Shown here in pieces: positions 5,908 through 13,849 of a stretch of DNA of 64,000 nucleotides. Source of the DNA: Streptomyces sp. Ru71 (GTDB lineage: Bacteria; Actinomycetota; Actinomycetes; Streptomycetales; Streptomycetaceae); contig NZ_PQSS01000011.1 in the NCBI RefSeq assembly GCF_002920535.1, forward strand, positions 1 to 64,000, read 5' to 3'. The first letter of the stretch is position 1, and every line of letters starts with the position of its first letter. The notes under the pieces are model-generated. The model was not told the origin of the DNA. It did not search any database and saw nothing but the letters and a program-made list of their open reading frames with translations. A program made the translations under genes and the position numbers.

Positions 5908-7557
5908 GTGGGACGCCACAGCAGGCGGGGGCCCGCGCCGAAGAAGGCGCCTGGCGATACCAACGGGACGGCGGGGGCGGGACGCCCGTCGGCGCCGGTT
6001 CCGCAGCCACCGATGCCACAGCTTCCGGACGATCCGGCGGGGTGGGGTGGCGAAGGGGTGCCTGGGCCTGGCGGGTTCGGGTATCCGCAGGGGGCGCCGG
6101 GGGCGGCCTTCCCCCAGGGGGCGCCGACGCGGGGCATGCCCCGGCGGCCGGACGGCACTCCGGCCCACGGTGTGCCCCGGTTCCCGGACGGCACACCGGC
6201 GCGTGGAGTGCCGAGGTTCTCCGACGGCACGCCTGCTCATGGTGTGCCGAGGTTCCCTGACGGCACGCCCGCTCATGGCGTCCCGAGGTTCCCCGACGGC
6301 ACCCCCGCTCACGGTGTCCCCCGGGTGCGGGGCGGGCATCCGGAGCAGCGGGAAGCAGGCGGTGGCTGGGGCGACGTGAGCGCAGCGCCCGGCGCGGCAG
6401 GATCCGCGCGGCCCGCGGGGCAGCAGACCGCCGGCGTTCCCATTCCGCGGCAGCGGCGGGCACCGCAGGGCGGGCCGCGTCAGGAGTACCTGGACGCCTT
6501 CGAGGGCCTCGACGGCGCCCGTCGCGACCGCGACGACGTCTTCACCCCGTTCCGCCCCGGTACCGGACCCGATCCGTCCACCGACCCGGACACCGGCACA
6601 GCCACCGGCAGCGGCACGGGTGCCGGCAACAGAGCCGCGCCGCCCCACGCCGCGAGCGCCCATCCCGGCACCACCGTCCCCCGGCCCGCCGCCGCCCCGC
6701 CCGGCACCGGCGCCGACGGGGCCGGCCTCGCGGGCGACGACCTGCCCGCGCGCCCCAAGAGCGGCAAGGGCCGCACCTTCACCGGCATCGCGGCCGCCGC
6801 CGTGACCACCGTGCTCGCCGTCGTCGTGGCCGGCCAGGTCACCGGCGACCACGACGGCGGCGTACACGCGCAGTCGGCCTCCGACCAGGCGCGCGACGCC
6901 CGGGACTCCGCCTCGCGCGGCGAGGGCAGGCCCAGCCAGTCCACGCCGGCCGCGCCGCTGACGTACGAGCAGAAGATGGCGCGGAAGTACCCGCTCAGCG
7001 CCACCCTCAAGGGCCCGGGGGCCTTCGACGCGGTGCCCGGCGTCGCGAAGGCGCCGGGGCACGGCCAGAAGTACACCTACCGCGTGGACGTCGAGCAGGG
7101 CCTCGGCCTCGACGGTGCGCTGTTCGCGGAGGCCGTGCAGAAGACGCTCAACGACCCCCGCAGCTGGGCCCACGGCGGCGCCCGCACCTTCGAGCGCGTC
7201 TACTCCGGCAAGCCCGACTTCGTCATCACGCTCGCCAGCCCCGGCACCACCGCCGCCTGGTGCGCCAAGTCCGGCCTGGACACCACGGAGGACAACGTCT
7301 CCTGCGACTCGGCCGCCACCGAGCGCGTGATGATCAACGCCTACCGGTGGGCGCAGGGTTCCCCGACCTACGGCGACCAGATCCACGCCTACCGGCAGAT
7401 GCTGATCAACCACGAGGTCGGCCACCGTCTCGGCCACGGTCACGTCACCTGCGACAAGGACGGCGAACTGGCCCCGGTCATGCAGCAGCAGACCAAGTTC
7501 CTGGACCACGACGGAATCCACTGCCGGCCCAACCCCTGGCCGTACCCCGCCACCTGA
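5908..7557 (+). CDS. Membrane-anchored DUF3152 zincin-like protein
   Basis: A 549-residue protein. The N-terminal 280 residues are a Pro/Gly-rich cytoplasmic segment containing five 12-residue repeats (about residues 76-135); a single membrane segment follows (about 291-310, TFTGIAAAAVTTVLAVVVAG); then an extracytoplasmic DUF3152 domain. That domain carries H502-E503-V-G-H506-R-L-G509-H-G-H512, a full metzincin HExxHxxGxxH zinc motif, plus cysteines likely paired outside the cell. This predicts a surface metalloprotease, though proteolysis by DUF3152 is not established to my knowledge. The start is GTG 5908, 8 nt after the hydrolase stop. The frame is open far upstream, but that region overlaps the hydrolase. 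Confidence 0.88.
   Translation: MGRHSRRGPAPKKAPGDTNGTAGAGRPSAPVPQPPMPQLPDDPAGWGGEGVPGPGGFGYPQGAPGAAFPQGAPTRGMPRRPDGTPAHGVPRFPDGTPARGVPRFSDGTPAHGVPRFPDGTPAHGVPRFPDGTPAHGVPRVRGGHPEQREAGGGWGDVSAAPGAAGSARPAGQQTAGVPIPRQRRAPQGGPRQEYLDAFEGLDGARRDRDDVFTPFRPGTGPDPSTDPDTGTATGSGTGAGNRAAPPHAASAHPGTTVPRPAAAPPGTGADGAGLAGDDLPARPKSGKGRTFTGIAAAAVTTVLAVVVAGQVTGDHDGGVHAQSASDQARDARDSASRGEGRPSQSTPAAPLTYEQKMARKYPLSATLKGPGAFDAVPGVAKAPGHGQKYTYRVDVEQGLGLDGALFAEAVQKTLNDPRSWAHGGARTFERVYSGKPDFVITLASPGTTAAWCAKSGLDTTEDNVSCDSAATERVMINAYRWAQGSPTYGDQIHAYRQMLINHEVGHRLGHGHVTCDKDGELAPVMQQQTKFLDHDGIHCRPNPWPYPAT
6133..6324 (+). repeat. Tandem 36-bp coding repeats (12-residue units)
   Basis: Five consecutive 36-bp units encode GVPRFPDGTPAH and close variants (GMPRRPDGTPAH, GVPRFPDGTPAR, GVPRFSDGTPAH, then two identical copies), followed by a partial GVPR unit. 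They lie in the disordered cytoplasmic part of the DUF3152 protein. The last copies are nearly identical at the DNA level, so copy number probably varies between strains. Confidence 0.9.
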
Positions 7558-7669
7558 CCCGGGCAGGCATCGTCGTACCGGCGCGACGCATGACGTTTCG
7601 CAACCGCGTGATCTCCTAGCGCGACCGAACGCGACCCGCGCGGGAAAGTTACGACCGTTCACCCCTTTT

Positions 7670-7703
7670 GGTGGTGCGACGGACAACCGTCCGTCGCACC
7701 ACC
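7670..7703. terminator. Strong stem-loop upstream of the polysaccharide operon
   Basis: A 14-bp perfect stem (GGTGGTGCGACGGA and its complement, 6-nt loop) lies 112 nt after the DUF3152 stop and 80 nt before the glycosyltransferase start. It most likely ends the upstream transcript. No other gene is seen in 7558-7783. Confidence 0.65.
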
Positions 7704-7783
7704 GCCTTGTCCGCATACGTTCGTCCCGCTGCGAGCCGCCGGACAGGCGGCGGCTCCCCACCTGGGAGATCGGGGGTGTACGC

Positions 7784-9511
7784 GTGCGCATCGGATTGAT
7801 TACGGAGGGTGGCTACCCGTTTCTGAGCGGTGACGCCGGGCCGTGGTGCGACCGGCTCGTGCGCGGGCTCGGGCAGCACGAGTTCGACGTCTACGCGCTC
7901 AGCCGCGGCCGGGACCAGGAGGACGACGGCTGGGTGCCGCTGCCGCCGCAGGTCAGCGGGGTGCGCGTGGCGCCGCTGTGGACCGCGCGGGAGGACGGCG
8001 TGGCGTACGGCAGGCGTGCGCGCCGGCGGTTCGCGGAGTGCTACGGCGAACTGCTGGCCGCGATCTGCGCGGACCCCGCGGGCGGCGCTGCGGAGGACGG
8101 GTCCACCCCCGAGGCGGACCGTTTCAGCAACGCGCTGTACGGCCTCGCCGAACTCGCCCGCGACGAGGGCGGGCTGGTGGGCGCGCTCCGTTCGGAAGGG
8201 GCGGTGCGCGCCCTGGAACGCGCCTGTCGTGCGCCCGGCGCGCTGCGCACCGCACGCGAGGCCCGGGTGCCGGACCTCCTCGCCGTCACCGAGCACCTGG
8301 AAAGCGCCCTGCGCCCCCTCTCGCTCGACTGGTACGACGACGCCGGGCTCGGCTCGGCCGACCTGTGCCACGCCGCCTCGGGTGGCCCGGCGGCCCTGTC
8401 CGGCCTGCTCGCCGGCCACTTCTTCGGCGTACCGCTGCTGGTGACCGAGTACGGCGTACGGCTGCGCAGCCACTATCTGGCCCAGGGCGCCGGCCCGGCC
8501 ACCGCGCCCGCCGTCCGCGCGCTGCTCGCCGCCTTCCACGGGCGGCTCGCCACCGAGGTCTACCGCCGGGCCGCCTGCGTCACGCCCGGCAACGCGCACG
8601 CCCGCCGCTGGCAGGAACGCTGCGGCGCCGACCGGGCCAAGCTGCGCACGGTCTACCCGGGCATGGACGCCGGTCGCTTCACCGAGGTCGGTGAGGCGCC
8701 GGACACCGCCGACCCGGACACCCTCGTGTGGGTCGGCCGGATCGAACCGGCCAAGGACCTGGTGTCGCTGCTGCACGCCTTCGCCGAGGTCCGCCGGGAG
8801 GAGCCGGGCGCCCGTCTGCGGATCGTCGGGCCGCCCGCCGGAGCCGAGGGCGAGGCGTACCTCGCCCACTGCAAGGCGCTCGCCGCCCAGCTCTTCCCGG
8901 ACGAGGCCGCAGGGCTGCACGCCGTCGGCGACAACCCCGTCTCCTTCGAGGAGATCGGCGGTCCGGAACTGCCCACGCTCGCCGACGCCTACGCCGCCGG
9001 CGCGGTCGTCGTGCTGTCCAGCGTCGTCGAGGGCTTTCCCCTCGGTCTGGTCGAGGCGATGTTCTGCGCTCGCGCGACCGTCTCCACGGACGTCGGCGCG
9101 GTCGTCGAGGTCATCGGCGGCACCGGACTCGTCGTACCGCCGCGCAATCCACGGGCGCTCGCGGAGGCGTGCGTGGCGATGCTGCGCGACCCCGAGCGTC
9201 GTGCGCGCCTGGGCGCCGCCGCACGCGCGCGTGCGCTGGAGCTGTTCACCGTCGAGCAGAACGTCGCGGCATTTCACGGCATTTACCTGGAGATCGTCTC
9301 CCGCTGCCCGGTCACCCGCGTCGTCCTCGACGAGGCCGGCGAGCCCCTGCCCTTCGGTGTCCCGGCGGAGGCACACGTCCCCGGCAGCTGGACCGACTCG
9401 GGCACCCCAGTCGTCGCCCGTGGCGGCCCGGGGTGGGCCGAGGCGGCACCCGTACGGGCCACGGCCCGGCCAGGCGTGCGGCCCGTGGCGGCGGCGGAAG
9501 GAGCGCGATGA
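7784..9511 (+). CDS. PelF-like glycosyltransferase (DUF3492 + GT4)
   Basis: A 575-residue cytoplasmic retaining glycosyltransferase. The N-terminus MRIGLITEGGYPF...GPWCDRLVRGL matches the DUF3492 region of PelF, the enzyme that polymerises Pel polysaccharide from UDP-GalNAc in Pseudomonas. The C-terminal half is a GT4 domain: LVWVGRIEPAKDL for nucleotide-sugar binding, then SSVVEGFPLGLVEAM containing the E-x7-E motif, then GLVVPPRNP. The last 70 residues are low complexity. The start is ATG/GTG near 7784 (GTGCGCATC). Its stop overlaps the start of the next gene (ATGA at 9508), so the two are translationally coupled. The sugar donor is inferred from the family only. Confidence 0.88.
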   Translation: MRIGLITEGGYPFLSGDAGPWCDRLVRGLGQHEFDVYALSRGRDQEDDGWVPLPPQVSGVRVAPLWTAREDGVAYGRRARRRFAECYGELLAAICADPAGGAAEDGSTPEADRFSNALYGLAELARDEGGLVGALRSEGAVRALERACRAPGALRTAREARVPDLLAVTEHLESALRPLSLDWYDDAGLGSADLCHAASGGPAALSGLLAGHFFGVPLLVTEYGVRLRSHYLAQGAGPATAPAVRALLAAFHGRLATEVYRRAACVTPGNAHARRWQERCGADRAKLRTVYPGMDAGRFTEVGEAPDTADPDTLVWVGRIEPAKDLVSLLHAFAEVRREEPGARLRIVGPPAGAEGEAYLAHCKALAAQLFPDEAAGLHAVGDNPVSFEEIGGPELPTLADAYAAGAVVVLSSVVEGFPLGLVEAMFCARATVSTDVGAVVEVIGGTGLVVPPRNPRALAEACVAMLRDPERRARLGAAARARALELFTVEQNVAAFHGIYLEIVSRCPVTRVVLDEAGEPLPFGVPAEAHVPGSWTDSGTPVVARGGPGWAEAAPVRATARPGVRPVAAAEGAR

Positions 9512-10795
9512 GCGGCACGGCGGACCAGGACCGCCCGGGGACACCGAGCAGCCCCGGGGCGTGGGACACGCGGTCGGCACAGCTCCTGGACGGCAGCGGG
9601 GCGGGGGCGCCACCCACGGAGGCGCCGGACGGTGCCTCCGAGGCGCCGCGTGGCCCCCGGAGACCCCACGCCCCCCGGCGCGGCACCGCCGACCCCGTGA
9701 AGGCGCTGATGCACCGGCACCGGGAGCTGTGCGAGAGCGCCGTCGACCCGTTGGAGATCGCCGCCGGTCTGGAGGCGCACGGCGTCACCGACCGCACCGC
9801 CGCCCGCTTCCGCCACCGGGACGTCTTCTCCCTCGCGGAGGAGATGTACGCGCGCGTGCCCCGCACCGGCGACCTCACTCCACCGCGGGGCGCGGGGGAC
9901 GCCCCCGGCCGCTCACGCCCCGGACCGGCCGCGCGCGACCTGGCTGCCGCTGTCCCTGCTGCCCGGGGCCCTGTGTGCCGCCGCCGTGGCAGGCCTGCGG
10001 CTCACCGACGGCCGGGCGCGCGGGTTCGTCGCCCTGGCCGGCGTCCTCGCCGTGGCTGCCGCACTGCGGGCCGTTCTGCGCCGGGGCCCCCTGAGCGCGG
10101 CGCACCGCCCCCGGCCCGCCGCCCGCCCCGCCGGTGCCCGCGCCGCCGTCTGGTGGCTGCTCGCCTACGCCGCGCTGGGCGACGCCCTGCTCGACGCGGC
10201 CGTCACCGGAGGCCCCGACGGCCTGCCCGACGGCACCCCGGCCGGCGCCTGGCCGCTCGCCGCGGCCCCCCTCCTGGCGCTCACCCTCGCCTGCGCCCCC
10301 GCCGCCTGGTGCGCCCACCTCCTCGCCGCCGGCGCCCGCCGCAAACTCGCCGCCAGCGGCGGTCTGGAGGAGTTCGCCGCAGCCGTACGGCCCCTGCTGC
10401 TCGGCACGTTCGCCCTGTTCCTGGCCGCGCTCACCGCGCTGCTCGCCCTGTGCGCGACCCTCCTCGGCGAGCCCGCCGGCTACGCCCGCACGCTCACCCT
10501 GGGCGCCCTCCTGCTGCTCGCCCGCCTGCTGGCCCTGCACGGAGCGACCCGCGCACCCGGGCTCGTCCTGGCCGCCACGGCCGCCTGCGAGGCCGTCGTC
10601 GTGGCCGCGGTCCTCGCCGCCCGCCTGCCCGGCTGCGGCTTCCTGAGCGTCCCCGTGGAGGCCGTCGTCGGCGCCCTGGGCCCGGGCGGCGTGCCCGCCC
10701 TGCTGTGCGGGGCGGCGGCCCTGACCCTGCTGATCCACGCGACCCGCACCCTCACCCGGGCCTCGGCCCACGCGCGAGCGGACCACCCCCGGTGA
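9508..10795 (+). pseudogene. Polytopic membrane protein of the Pel-like operon, split by a +1 frameshift
   Basis: Reading begins at ATG 9508 (overlapping the glycosyltransferase stop) and gives a hydrophilic N-terminus including HRELCESAVDPLEIAAGLEAHG and RHRDVFSLAEEMYARVP. After about 9890 this frame turns into Arg/Pro-rich nonsense, while the +1 frame opens with PAAHAPDRPRATWLPLSLLPG and runs through seven to nine membrane segments to a TGA at 10793-10795. Deleting one base in the G5 (9894-9898) or C5 (9902-9906) run restores one protein of about 428 residues. By position it could be the partner membrane protein (a PelG-like role), but I see no clear sequence match to PelG. It is either a real mutation or a sequencing error. 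Confidence 0.78.
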
Positions 10796-10860
10796 GCCGC
10801 CGGCAGCCCACCCCCCACCGGGCCGCACGCAACCGCGACACCCTTGAAGGAGAACACCAG

Positions 10861-10908
10861 ATGATCACCTCCCGACCCGAGGACTCGGCCCCGGGAGCCG
10901 CCCGATGA
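10861..10908 (+). CDS. 15-residue leader ORF coupled to the epimerase
   Basis: ATG 10861 follows a very good ribosome-binding site (GAAGGAGAACACCAG) and encodes a 15-residue peptide (MITSRPEDSAPGAAR) whose TGA overlaps the ATG of the epimerase in ATGA (10905-10908). The epimerase has no other good ribosome-binding site, so ribosomes probably load here and re-initiate. It may be only a coupling device. The peptide has no recognisable domain. Confidence 0.5.
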   Translation: MITSRPEDSAPGAAR

Positions 10909-11867
10909 GGGTCCTGCTGATCGGAGCCAACGGCTTCCTCGGCCGCTTCGTCGCCGACCGTCTGCTCGCCGACCCGGCCGTCCAGCTCACCGCGCTCGGC
11001 CGCGGGGACGACGCCGACGTCCGCTTCGACCTCGCCACCGGCAGCCCGGGCGCGCTCACCCGCTTCCTCGACGCCGTCCACCCGCAGGTCGTCGTCAACT
11101 GCGCCGGCGCCACCCGCGGCGGCGCCCGCGAACTGACCCGGCACAACACCGTCGCCGTCGCCACCATCTGCGAGGCGCTGCGCCGCAGCGGCTGCGGAGC
11201 CCGGCTGGTGCAGCTCGGCTGCGGCGCCGAGTACGGCCCGAGCCAGCCCGGCTCCTCCACGGCCGAGGACGCGGTGCCGCGCCCCGGCGGCCCGTACGGC
11301 GTCAGCAAGCTCGCCGCCACCGAACTCGTCCTCGGTTCCGGCTTGGACGCCGTCGTCCTGCGCGTCTTCTCGCCCGCCGGACCCGGCACCCCGGCCGGCT
11401 CCCCGCTCGGGCGGCTCGCCGAGGCCATGCGGCGTGCCATGCAGTCCGGCGACGGCGAACTCAAGCTCGGCGGCCTCGGCGCCCAGCGCGACTTCGTCGA
11501 CGTCCGCGACGTGGCCCGCGCCGTCCACGCCGCCTCCCTGTCGGCCGCGCAAGGCGTGATCAACATCGGCTCGGGCCGCGCCGTGCGGCTGCGCGACGCC
11601 GCCGCGATCCTCGCCCGGGTCGCCGGCTACGGCGGTGCCCTGCACGAGCTCGACGGCCCGCCCGGCCCGCCGCTCAGGTCGCCCATCGGCCACCCGCGTG
11701 CCGACTCCGACCATGTCGCACCGGTCGCCTACCCCTACCCCGACGGCTGCGGCAGCTGGCAGCAGGCCGATGTGCGCACCGCACGCGACCGGCTCGGCTG
11801 GCGGCCCCGGATCAACCTCGAAGAGTCCCTCGCCGACATCTGGATGGAGGCGGCATGCCGCATCTGA
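10905..11867 (+). CDS. NAD-dependent epimerase/dehydratase
   Basis: A 320-residue extended SDR enzyme. The N-terminal Rossmann motif is GANGFLG (residues 7-13), the catalytic pair is Y-G-V-S-K (PYGVSKLAATE, about residues 129-139) with an upstream QLGCGAEYG Ser/Cys region, and the substrate-domain motif QRDFVDVRDVARA is present. These enzymes interconvert nucleotide sugars; between a PelF-like transferase and a GH135-like hydrolase, a UDP-HexNAc 4-epimerase supplying the polymer is plausible but not proven. It starts in the ATGA overlap with the leader ORF and overlaps the next gene by 13 nt. Confidence 0.87.
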   Translation: MRVLLIGANGFLGRFVADRLLADPAVQLTALGRGDDADVRFDLATGSPGALTRFLDAVHPQVVVNCAGATRGGARELTRHNTVAVATICEALRRSGCGARLVQLGCGAEYGPSQPGSSTAEDAVPRPGGPYGVSKLAATELVLGSGLDAVVLRVFSPAGPGTPAGSPLGRLAEAMRRAMQSGDGELKLGGLGAQRDFVDVRDVARAVHAASLSAAQGVINIGSGRAVRLRDAAAILARVAGYGGALHELDGPPGPPLRSPIGHPRADSDHVAPVAYPYPDGCGSWQQADVRTARDRLGWRPRINLEESLADIWMEAACRI

Positions 11868-12607
11868 CCAGTACCAAAGCCAGCACCTCCAGCACCGATC
11901 TGCGCACCGGCCTCGGCATCCCGGGCCTCGCGCACCCCCTCGTGGCACCGGCCGAGTGGGGCGAGCTCGCCCGGCCCGGCAGGCCGCTGCACTGGGTCGT
12001 CCTCGACGTCGCCGACGGCGCCGGCGCCCGCCCCGACCCGCACTGCCTGGAGGCGGCCGGCCGGCTCCGCAACGCCGGTGTGCGCGTGCTGGGGCGGCTG
12101 AACGCCTCCTCGGCCGCCGGTGACGTGCTCGGCGACGCCCAGCACTACGTCGACTGGTACCAGGTCGACGGCTTCCTGCTGGACCGCTGCCCCGCCGACG
12201 GCGACGCCCTGCCGGCGGTGCGCCGCACGGTCTCCGCGCTGCGCTCCCGGCGTGACGATGCCCACATCGTCCTGGGCCACGGCACCCACCCGCACCCCGG
12301 CTACGCCGAGACCGCCGAGCAGTTGGTGACCTTCCGCGGCGCCTGGAGCGACTACCGCTGGTCGCAGGCGGCCGAGTGGACCGCGGACCACCCGCCGGAG
12401 CGCTTCTGCCACCTCGTGCACGGCGTGCCCCGCCCGCACCTGGAGGAGGCACTGCGCATCGCCCGCTGGCAGGGCGCGGCGACGATCTGGTTCACCGACC
12501 GGGTGGGAAGCGGCCACCACAGGGACGAGGGCGTGGACCCGTGGACCACGATGCCCGGCTACTGGGACGAAATCGTCTCGCGTATCGGAACGGGTGTCTC
12601 GGAATGA
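11855..12607 (+). CDS. Spherulation-specific family 4 (GH135-like) protein
   Basis: A 250-residue protein with a predicted TIM-barrel-like pattern typical of the spherulin-4 family: GLGIPGLAHPLVAP, HWVVLDVADGAG, LGRLNASSAAGD, HYVDWYQVDGFLLDRCPAD and IVLGHGTHPHPGY. Fungal members (GH135, Sph3) cleave alpha-1,4-linked GalNAc in galactosaminogalactan. There is no signal peptide, so it would act inside the cell or leave by another route. The acidic residues in VDGFLLD would be the catalytic candidates. It is the last gene of the operon and overlaps the epimerase by 13 nt. Family call fairly secure; substrate inferred. Confidence 0.8.
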   Translation: MPHLTSTKASTSSTDLRTGLGIPGLAHPLVAPAEWGELARPGRPLHWVVLDVADGAGARPDPHCLEAAGRLRNAGVRVLGRLNASSAAGDVLGDAQHYVDWYQVDGFLLDRCPADGDALPAVRRTVSALRSRRDDAHIVLGHGTHPHPGYAETAEQLVTFRGAWSDYRWSQAAEWTADHPPERFCHLVHGVPRPHLEEALRIARWQGAATIWFTDRVGSGHHRDEGVDPWTTMPGYWDEIVSRIGTGVSE

Positions 12608-12670: not shown

Positions 12671-13849
12671 GTGTCGTTGCCACCCCTGGTCGAGCCAGCT
12701 GCTGAGCTCACCGTAGACGAGGTCCGCCGGTACTCCCGCCACCTGATCATCCCCGACGTGGGGATGGACGGGCAGAAGCGGCTGAAGAACGCCAAGGTGC
12801 TCTGTGTGGGCGCCGGCGGCCTGGGCTCGCCGGCGCTGATGTACCTGGCCGCCGCGGGCGTGGGCACGCTCGGCATCGTGGAGTTCGACGAGGTCGACGA
12901 GTCGAACCTGCAGCGTCAGATCATCCACAGCCAGTCCGACATCGGCCGCTCGAAGGCGGAGTCGGCCCGCGACACCGTCAAGGGCATCAACCCGTACGTG
13001 AACGTGGTCCTTCACGAGGAGCGGCTCGAAGCCGACAACGTGATGGACATCTTCAGCCAGTACGACCTGATCATCGACGGCACGGACAACTTCGCGACCC
13101 GCTACCTGGTCAACGACGCGTGCGTGCTGCTGAACAAGCCGTACGTGTGGGGCTCGATCTACCGCTTCGACGGCCAGGCGTCCGTCTTCTGGTCCGAGCA
13201 CGGCCCCTGCTACCGCTGCCTCTACCCGGAGCCCCCGCCCCCCGGCATGGTCCCCTCCTGCGCCGAGGGCGGCGTCCTGGGCGTGCTGTGCGCGTCCATC
13301 GGCTCCATCCAGGTCAACGAGGCCATCAAGCTCCTCGCGGGCATCGGCGAGCCGCTGGTCGGCCGTCTGATGATCTACGACGCCCTGGAGATGACCTACC
13401 GCCAGGTCAAGGTCCGCAAGGACCCGAACTGCGCGGTCTGCGGCGACAACCCGACGGTCACCGAGCTCATCGACTACGAGGCCTTCTGCGGCGTCGTCTC
13501 CGAGGAGGCCCAGGAGGCGGCCGCCAGCGCGACGATCACTCCCAAGCAGCTCAAGGAGTGGATCGACGACGGCGAGAACATCGACATCATCGACGTCCGC
13601 GAGCCGAACGAGTACGAGATCGTCTCCATCCCGGGCGCCCGCCTGATCCCGAAGAACGAGTTCCTCATGGGCACCGCCCTGGAGGGCCTCCCGCAGGACA
13701 AGAAGATCGTCTTGCACTGCAAGACGGGTGTCCGCAGTGCGGAAGTCCTCGCGGTCCTGAAGTCCGCGGGCTTCGCCGACGCGGTCCACGTGGGCGGCGG
13801 CGTCATCGGCTGGGTCAACCAGATCGAACCGCACAAGCCGGTCTACTGA
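12671..13849 (+). CDS. moeZ: MoeZ: ThiF-type adenylyltransferase fused to rhodanese
   Basis: A 392-residue cytosolic enzyme that adenylates and then thiolates the C-terminus of sulfur carrier proteins (MoaD, ThiS, CysO and those of secondary metabolism). The E1-like domain shows GAGGLGSP (residues 47-54), DEVDESNLQRQ, DGTDNFATRY and two zinc CxxC pairs (CYRC, CAVC). The rhodanese domain (from about 285) has DVREPNEYEI and the active loop HCKTGVRS with Cys350. The start is GTG 12671 after a GGAGT ribosome-binding site. It is followed by a strong terminator. It relates to the MoaE gene at 47042. Confidence 0.95.
   Translation: MSLPPLVEPAAELTVDEVRRYSRHLIIPDVGMDGQKRLKNAKVLCVGAGGLGSPALMYLAAAGVGTLGIVEFDEVDESNLQRQIIHSQSDIGRSKAESARDTVKGINPYVNVVLHEERLEADNVMDIFSQYDLIIDGTDNFATRYLVNDACVLLNKPYVWGSIYRFDGQASVFWSEHGPCYRCLYPEPPPPGMVPSCAEGGVLGVLCASIGSIQVNEAIKLLAGIGEPLVGRLMIYDALEMTYRQVKVRKDPNCAVCGDNPTVTELIDYEAFCGVVSEEAQEAAASATITPKQLKEWIDDGENIDIIDVREPNEYEIVSIPGARLIPKNEFLMGTALEGLPQDKKIVLHCKTGVRSAEVLAVLKSAGFADAVHVGGGVIGWVNQIEPHKPVY

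Follow-up and report, generated by a model that had tools for sequence, protein, structure and literature searches.

A widespread Streptomyces operon upstream of moeZ combines a PelF-like glycosyltransferase with altered accessory enzymes and a candidate leader RNA

We analyzed a stretch of 64,000 nucleotides from Streptomyces sp. Ru71 (hereafter the window), in which a first-pass annotation had described a four-gene operon resembling those for Pel and fungal galactosaminogalactan (GAG) polysaccharides. The operon lies on contig C11 of this 8.2 Mb genome and is followed by moeZ, all genes being on the forward strand (Table 1). It encodes a glycosyltransferase (GT), a polytopic membrane protein (MP), an extended short-chain dehydrogenase/reductase (SDR) and a relative of spherulin-4 (SPH), and is preceded by a conserved 5' leader. 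The overlapping or coupled starts attributed to the operon are found at two of its junctions but not at the third. The GT and MP genes overlap by 4 nt (ATGA), a junction that recurs in 69 of 74 related loci, and the SDR and SPH genes overlap by 13 nt, as they do in 69 of 71 loci. Between MP and SDR there is instead a gap, of about 110 nt here and of 99 to 941 nt (median 186) in 72 loci. SPH and moeZ are separated by 63 nt in 66 of 70 loci.

We refer to the GT-MP-SDR-SPH set that precedes moeZ and has no Agd3-like gene as type I, and to the Agd3-bearing sister clusters as types II and III. Our sample of type I consists of the best 80 loci from a contig search, and more exist. These 80 are Streptomyces records, one of them labelled Kitasatospora, and some genomes and locus records belong to the same or nearly the same species (for example L065 and G011), so that the counts are partly redundant. 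In 70 of the 80 all five genes stand in the order GT-MP-SDR-SPH-moeZ, more than chance would give; nine of the other ten are cut by the end of a contig, and one (L089) lacks only a called SPH gene. No Agd3-like gene occurs within the fetched stretch of any of the 80 loci. Median dN/dS ratios, obtained from the first 30 sequences of each set, are 0.242 for GT, 0.466 for MP, 0.074 for SDR, 0.288 for SPH and 0.132 for moeZ.

Table 1. Features of the operon and its neighbors in the window
Feature	Position	Strand	Evidence or remark
3' part of DUF3152 protein gene	6850..7557	+	upstream neighbor, outside operon
Conserved 5' leader RNA, candidate translational switch	7634..7786	+	alignment, RNAalifold, pair counts, z-score, covariance model
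PelF-like DUF3492 + GT4 glycosyltransferase (GT)	7784..9511	+	Pfam, NCBIfam, 13-sequence alignment
Polytopic membrane protein (MP), N-terminal helical domain + ~9 membrane helices	9508..10795	+	possibly MOP-like fold
Extended SDR of the epimerase/dehydratase family; closest (weak) matches RMD/RmlD	10905..11867	+	YxxxK kept, Cys106
Spherulin-4/GH135 relative (SPH)	11855..12607	+	probable pseudo-glycosidase, Arg161 at catalytic Glu site
moeZ, adenylyltransferase/sulfurtransferase	12671..13849	+	constant downstream neighbor

The GT matches PF11997 (DUF3492) with 99.7 bits against a cut-off of 23.3, and its top NCBIfam model is PelF with 97.6 bits, ahead of MshA (63.0) and TreT (25.1). Since PelF outscores both of these, the enzyme falls on the Pel side of the family; it was rightly annotated as a PelF-like DUF3492-GT4 transferase, and a trehalose or mycothiol transferase is ruled out for the window protein. 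All 13 GTs of types I to III that were compared match PelF, and no other family reaches its E-value of 1.3e-50; E416 and E424 of the EX7E motif do not vary in the alignment of these 13 sequences.

The roughly 150 nt that precede the GT start show a mean column identity of 81% over 47 type I sequences (43 of the 77 listed leaders, the window and three others). RNAalifold pairs the strand at 7650-7666 with the Shine-Dalgarno/start region at 7772-7786, and places a hairpin of 16 bp, P1, at 7670-7703 and a second hairpin at about 7733-7756. In this structure 98.2% of 1922 cells are paired, as compared with 30.0-48.5% when the partners are slid. Changes on both sides of a pair, most of them in P1, were counted in 35 cells versus 10.7 in shuffles, with 0 of 500 shuffles reaching that number. 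The window leader itself folds at -80.6 kcal/mol (z = -5.18), and 0 of 200 shuffles are as low. A covariance model of the leader has matches in 75 of 81 Streptomyces genomes and, in a sample of the order, in 180 of 197 genomes, which divide into 180 of 181 Streptomyces and 0 of 16 others; the weakest genome matches among those listed have an E-value of about 1e-4 and perhaps cover the hairpin only. When run on the loci, the model finds 11 of 11 type I sources, four of which are in the model, and 0 of 9 of types II and III. Among relatives that carry a type I GT, the leader abuts the GT start in all 20 inspected by eye, the match being partial in G011. No Rfam family scores above its gathering threshold on the leader (the best, CC1840, reaches 29.4 bits versus 50), and an Rfam scan of the whole window returned two tRNAs only.

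From these sequence patterns we lean towards the leader being a translational switch. A competing reading is a DNA operator (palindrome) or a transcription terminator or antiterminator, which we consider possible but clearly less probable. P1 is a near-perfect 34-bp inverted repeat matched on both strands, and the concentration of covariation within it would suit such an element. P1, however, holds 29 G-U cells versus 5 A-C cells, which favors an RNA over a DNA palindrome, as a tendency only among related sequences; the other helices are 97-99% paired, no U-run follows P1, and the leader stays with the GT even where the DUF3152 gene is far upstream. That gene lies more than 5 kb from the GT in 36 of 76 loci, and we therefore place it outside the operon. 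In L056 (3376-8810), the one such locus examined, an oligopeptide ATP-binding cassette transporter stands between the DUF3152 gene and the GT, and the leader remains beside the GT. Like the epsC leader RNA of Bacillus exopolysaccharide operons (PMC2864571), the Streptomyces leader would be a structured RNA element lying 5' of polysaccharide genes. It differs from epsC in taxon, in matching no Rfam family and in its predicted action, which is pairing with the Shine-Dalgarno/start region.

The polytopic membrane protein gene that had been annotated is present, but not as a single intact frame: both the reading frame and the third-position GC switch at about 9868-9930. A closed MP frame of at least 360 aa is found in 72 of the 74 related loci with a callable gene, the exceptions being L082 (132 aa) and L123, where the gene runs off the contig. 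Because these relatives are intact, the break in the window comes either from the assembly or from a frameshift peculiar to this strain, and does not belong to the design of the system, and a programmed frameshift is ruled out on the same ground. The MPs of type I and of types II/III are homologous (hhalign 99%, E 2.6e-18), most clearly in the N-terminal helical domain; the type I alignment holds 42 of 55 length-filtered proteins, and that of type II does not include L024. The protein had been proposed as the counterpart of PelG, and it is not PelG by any sequence test. PF16933 (PelG) has no match at E<=1 among the 42 type I and five type II/III MPs, the MP profile has none at E<=1 among PDB sequences, and PelG is above its cut-off in 0 of 148 genomes of the class. 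With neither a Pfam match to PelG nor a PDB profile match, a PelG in disguise finds no support in sequence. Elsewhere in the window's own genome, away from both GT clusters, C94:4059-4433 gives a partial PelG match of 28.9 bits versus the cut-off of 29.

PelG belongs to the MOP superfamily, and structure prediction gives a possible tie of the MP to that superfamily. The AlphaFold model of an intact relative (L093) has a pLDDT of 79.2, and its five best VIA-align rows are MurJ/MATE proteins, with Z of 8.9-10.7 over 141-252 residues. MurJ, which flips lipid II, ranks first (Z 10.7), an unrelated designed protein comes sixth (Z 8.0), and PelG is absent among the rows listed. On the strength of this model the MP is perhaps MOP-like in fold, and kinship with the MOP superfamily is plausible. 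The MurJ row would also suit a product of another kind, namely a lipid-linked or wall-attached glycan similar to teichoic acid or O-antigen, for which the MP would act as a small lipid-glycan flippase; the lack of an Agd3-like gene in all 80 loci points the same way. We find this fairly unlikely, given that the four genes include no priming transferase, polymerase or ligase and that PelF relatives work in synthase-dependent systems (PMC7112168).

The SDR had been called a sugar-nucleotide epimerase. Its membership in the NAD-dependent epimerase/dehydratase family is borne out by PF01370 (130.4 bits), but it is not a recognizable GalE: no NCBIfam model reaches its cut-off on the window protein, and galE scores 29.0 versus 262.3. 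Among solved structures its best relatives are the GDP-4-keto-6-deoxy-sugar reductases 2pk3 (79.1 bits, E 3.9e-21) and 6x3b (63.9 bits), behind which comes the UDP-glucose 4-epimerase 4zrm (52.7 bits). In GalE the catalytic Ser stands 25 positions ahead of the catalytic Tyr; at that position type I SDRs have Cys in 73 of 73 cases (Cys106 in the window) and type III SDRs have Ser in 20 of 20, while in type I the Tyr and Lys of the YxxxK motif are kept. Of the five genes whose dN/dS was compared, the SDR gene is under the strongest constraint. Type I SDRs may be derived from an enzyme acting on nucleoside diphosphate sugars, probably a 4-keto-reductase. This reductase reading draws mainly on the PDB match and on the partner genes of type III, a dehydratase and a nucleotidyltransferase, which from their sequences fit a 6-deoxy-sugar route ending in 4-keto reduction.

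SPH belongs to the spherulin-4/GH135 family, as annotated, but lacks the catalytic Glu that an active hydrolase of this family would carry. PF12138 (Spherulin4) gives 54.3 bits versus a cut-off of 30.2, and the Sph3 structure 5c5g is found with E=2.8e-10 by a profile of 40 type I SPHs (39 of 67 length-filtered proteins and the window) and with 0.011 by the window protein alone. At the position of Sph3 Glu222, none of 81 type I SPHs has Glu (S 55, R 13, A 9, Q 2, C 1, H 1), the window carrying Arg161; locus L048 was dropped from this count for its runs of N, and open or short proteins were dropped from the SDR and GT alignments. The type I locus L048 (genome G010) looks degraded, an appearance that its N runs make uncertain. 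Both the catalytic Asp and the Glu are kept in 9 of 9 type II/III SPHs and in all of 20 type III loci. The catalytic residues of Sph3 are said to have been given as D166/E167/E222 in Bamford's 2015 work. Counting back from Glu222 on our SPH alignment, the aligned Sph3 Asp is 166. In PMC12054363 the catalytic pairs of Ega3 (Asp189/Glu247), Sph3 and PelA (Asp160/Glu223) overlap, and the Sph3 pair is printed as Asp196/Glu222.

Hydropathy reveals no signal-peptide-like segment in the window SPH, consistent with the view that the protein is not obviously secreted, and from its sequence type I SPH seems to be cytosolic. The residue pattern makes it probable that type I SPH has no hydrolase activity and is a pseudo-glycosidase. 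Searched with the window SPH, 143 of 150 Streptomyces genomes contain a match, a number to be taken as an upper bound for type I because some matches are only the type II/III paralog. Among the seven genomes where SPH is unmatched, six still list an SDR copy with 48-51% identity to a type III query, which is the level of type I SDR copies. SPH is still under selection, as its dN/dS indicates, and yet it is not indispensable. A PF12138 search of the window's own genome first gave only the type II copy, so that such searches undercount type I SPHs; in a wider search 23 of 296 genomes matched.

The same genome contains a second DUF3492 GT, on contig C131 (the type II cluster, L052). An Agd3-like gene stands before it, genes for a homologous MP and a spherulin come after it, and this type II arrangement recurs in other Streptomyces. 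The presence of a sister cluster with an Agd3-like gene in one genome makes kinship of type I to GAG-type systems likely. A cluster in L042 that resembles this type II cluster adjoins genes for an M17 aminopeptidase, a lipoamide dehydrogenase-like protein and a 2-oxoacid dehydrogenase acyltransferase. Type III clusters contain, in addition, a LegB-like 4,6-dehydratase, a sugar-1-phosphate nucleotidyltransferase and an SDR (for example L047:11526-14872 and L165-L184). LegB acts on GDP-linked N-acetylglucosamine, and the LegB-like dehydratases of two type III clusters score 444.6 and 451.5 bits versus a cut-off of 475. In the best 20 type III loci, where L165 is the same cluster as L047, the LegB-like, nucleotidyltransferase, SDR and spherulin genes stand in a row in all 20. 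Type III clusters are a possible 6-deoxy-N-acetylhexosamine (6-deoxy-HexNAc) variant of GAG-like polymers. The best LegB-like match in the window's genome is only 37% identical, and we therefore found no type III cluster there. All nine type II/III loci examined carry an Agd3-like gene. One of its products was scanned against Agd3_CE and scored 19.8 bits, below the cut-off of 27.6, and the Agd3-like protein had no match at E<=0.01 among PDB sequences; the label derives from this sub-cut-off Pfam match of one protein and from the operon context in PMC7229062.

With these sister clusters in view, a canonical small Pel/GAG system can be weighed, in which the SDR makes UDP-N-acetylgalactosamine (UDP-GalNAc), the GT polymerizes alpha-1,4-GalNAc, the MP exports the polymer and the spherulin trims it. 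The PelF-like GT, the spherulin-4 family membership and the Agd3-type sister cluster, which lend partial support to the kinship to Pel and GAG proposed in the first-pass annotation, would all fit, and one type III SDR (L047) scores highest for galE (53.1 versus 49.2 for rmlD), far below the galE cut-off of 262.3; a second type III SDR that was scanned scores 55.3 for rmlD versus 49.3 for galE. What finds no support is a working GalNAc epimerase together with a hydrolase. The poor galE score of the window SDR, its preference for 2pk3 over GalE, the uniform exchange of Ser for Cys, the lack of an Agd3-like gene and a spherulin with neither the acid/base Glu nor a signal-peptide-like segment make the canonical system quite improbable. 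Least probable of all is that type I is a decaying paralog whose accessory enzymes, and in this strain the MP, are being lost: the missing catalytic residues, the broken MP frame, the fast evolution of MP and the genomes that retain SDR where SPH is unmatched would be expected of it, but hardly the conserved gene order, the strong constraint on SDR or a leader found in nearly every Streptomyces genome sampled.

We instead interpret the type I operon as a widespread Streptomyces member of the Pel/GAG-like family of glycan operons, and for the main lines of this explanation, taken as a whole and drawn from sequence comparisons, we see even prospects of being right. That the GT makes a glycan and the MP moves it is likely; that the sugar is GalNAc is doubtful. 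The GT would build a HexNAc-type glycan in the cytosol, and the MP would pass it through the membrane much as a small transporter of the MOP superfamily does. SPH would no longer cut the polymer; on the cytosolic face of the membrane it may bind either the polymer or the synthase. The SDR, apparently held by very strong selection, may now work with Cys in place of Ser, or may sense nucleotide and sugar. The 5' strand of the leader would fold onto the Shine-Dalgarno sequence and start codon, and the GT would then be silent until a signal opens the leader.

Several observations count against this interpretation. The PelF score of the window GT lies just below the equivalog cut-off (NF038011, 100 bits). 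Foldseek returned nothing significant for the L093 MP model (best E 0.11), and VIA-align itself warns that Z below about 13 for helical bundles may reflect a common arrangement. The rmlD model reaches only 36.4 bits on the window SDR, versus a cut-off of 224.05, which leaves the reductase label weak; the galE preference of the L047 SDR adds to this, and Cys may partly replace Ser in catalysis. As for SPH, the catalytic Asp position is occupied by Asp in 60 of 81 type I proteins and by Glu in 7, so that some activity by another route is possible. Its AlphaFold model is poor (pLDDT 60.7), and Foldseek of that model retrieved mostly generic TIM-barrel enzymes (best E 3e-4), with Sph3 not among the 50 rows listed; given the quality of the model, the profile is the better evidence for the identity of SPH. 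In the leader, letters shuffled within pairs are still 97.1% paired, most pairs being nearly invariant, and a set of related sequences may rise above shuffles even where there is no structure. The helix with the Shine-Dalgarno/start region has no both-side changes, since these elements are constrained anyway. Finally, the lowest-energy fold of the window leader includes P1 and the pairing of the 5' strand with the Shine-Dalgarno region, but has another middle part in place of the second hairpin.

Operons of a related kind have been published. Bamford et al. (2020; PMC7229062) describe bacterial operons in which Agd3 is accompanied by a cytoplasmic GT, a protein with several membrane spans and, in some cases, a spherulin-4, and types II and III are therefore of a known kind; the C131 cluster appears to be of this sort. 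The type I operon shares with such operons the cytoplasmic GT, the multi-spanning MP and the spherulin-4 that some of them have in Actinobacteria, but has no Agd3-like gene, possesses its own leader RNA, sits before moeZ and has altered catalytic residues in both accessory proteins. It also resembles the Gram-positive Pel operon pelDEADAFG (Whitfield et al. 2020; PMC7112168) in having a PelF-like GT beside a polytopic protein. For several Gram-positives the same source describes fusions of PelD to epimerase domains whose catalytic residues are altered; the type I SDR with its Cys offers a parallel, although it is a free protein. Unlike Pel, the type I operon has an MP that matches no PelG model, and none of its four genes encodes PelD, PelE or the PelA deacetylase, for which no whole-genome search was made; it is simpler than Pel, as had been noted. 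With the Aspergillus GAG cluster (gtb3, agd3, ega3, sph3, uge3; PMC7229062, PMC12054363) it shares a synthase, an epimerase-family protein and a spherulin-4. Aspergillus Sph3 is an active hydrolase outside the membrane, whereas type I SPH has neither the signal-like segment nor the catalytic Glu. Thermotoga maritima, our control genome, matches both DUF3492 and PelG, and is the source of one GH191 protein in PMC12054363.

The claim that the system is under-described therefore applies to the Agd3-less, moeZ-linked operon and not to its Agd3-type relatives. In the titles and abstracts listed from the open-licence literature we found no description of the type I operon or its leader, though papers beyond those listings may contain one. 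The one paper that came up for DUF3492 concerns Fusobacterium. The S. coelicolor locus tags that we presumed for this search, SCO5178-SCO5182, gave literature matches for SCO5178 only. The main text of PMC7112194 does not mention Streptomyces.

A bolder version of our interpretation is unlikely to be right. It proposes a Streptomyces-wide synthase whose SDR is a pseudo-reductase acting as nucleotide-sugar sensor, whose dead GH135 protein gates or primes the polymer in the cytosol, and whose leader is an undescribed riboswitch sequestering the Shine-Dalgarno/start region. Type III clusters would in this version be 6-deoxy analogs of Pel/GAG, with the LegB-like dehydratase, the nucleotidyltransferase and the intact SDR supplying 6-deoxy-HexNAc.

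If our interpretation is true, Streptomyces would gain a widespread and uncharacterized cell-surface glycan, together with a compact candidate regulatory RNA. A synthase-dependent polysaccharide system could then retain processing enzymes as non-catalytic parts, and by comparing types I, II and III one can test, in harmless laboratory strains, what Sph3-like and epimerase-like partners do.

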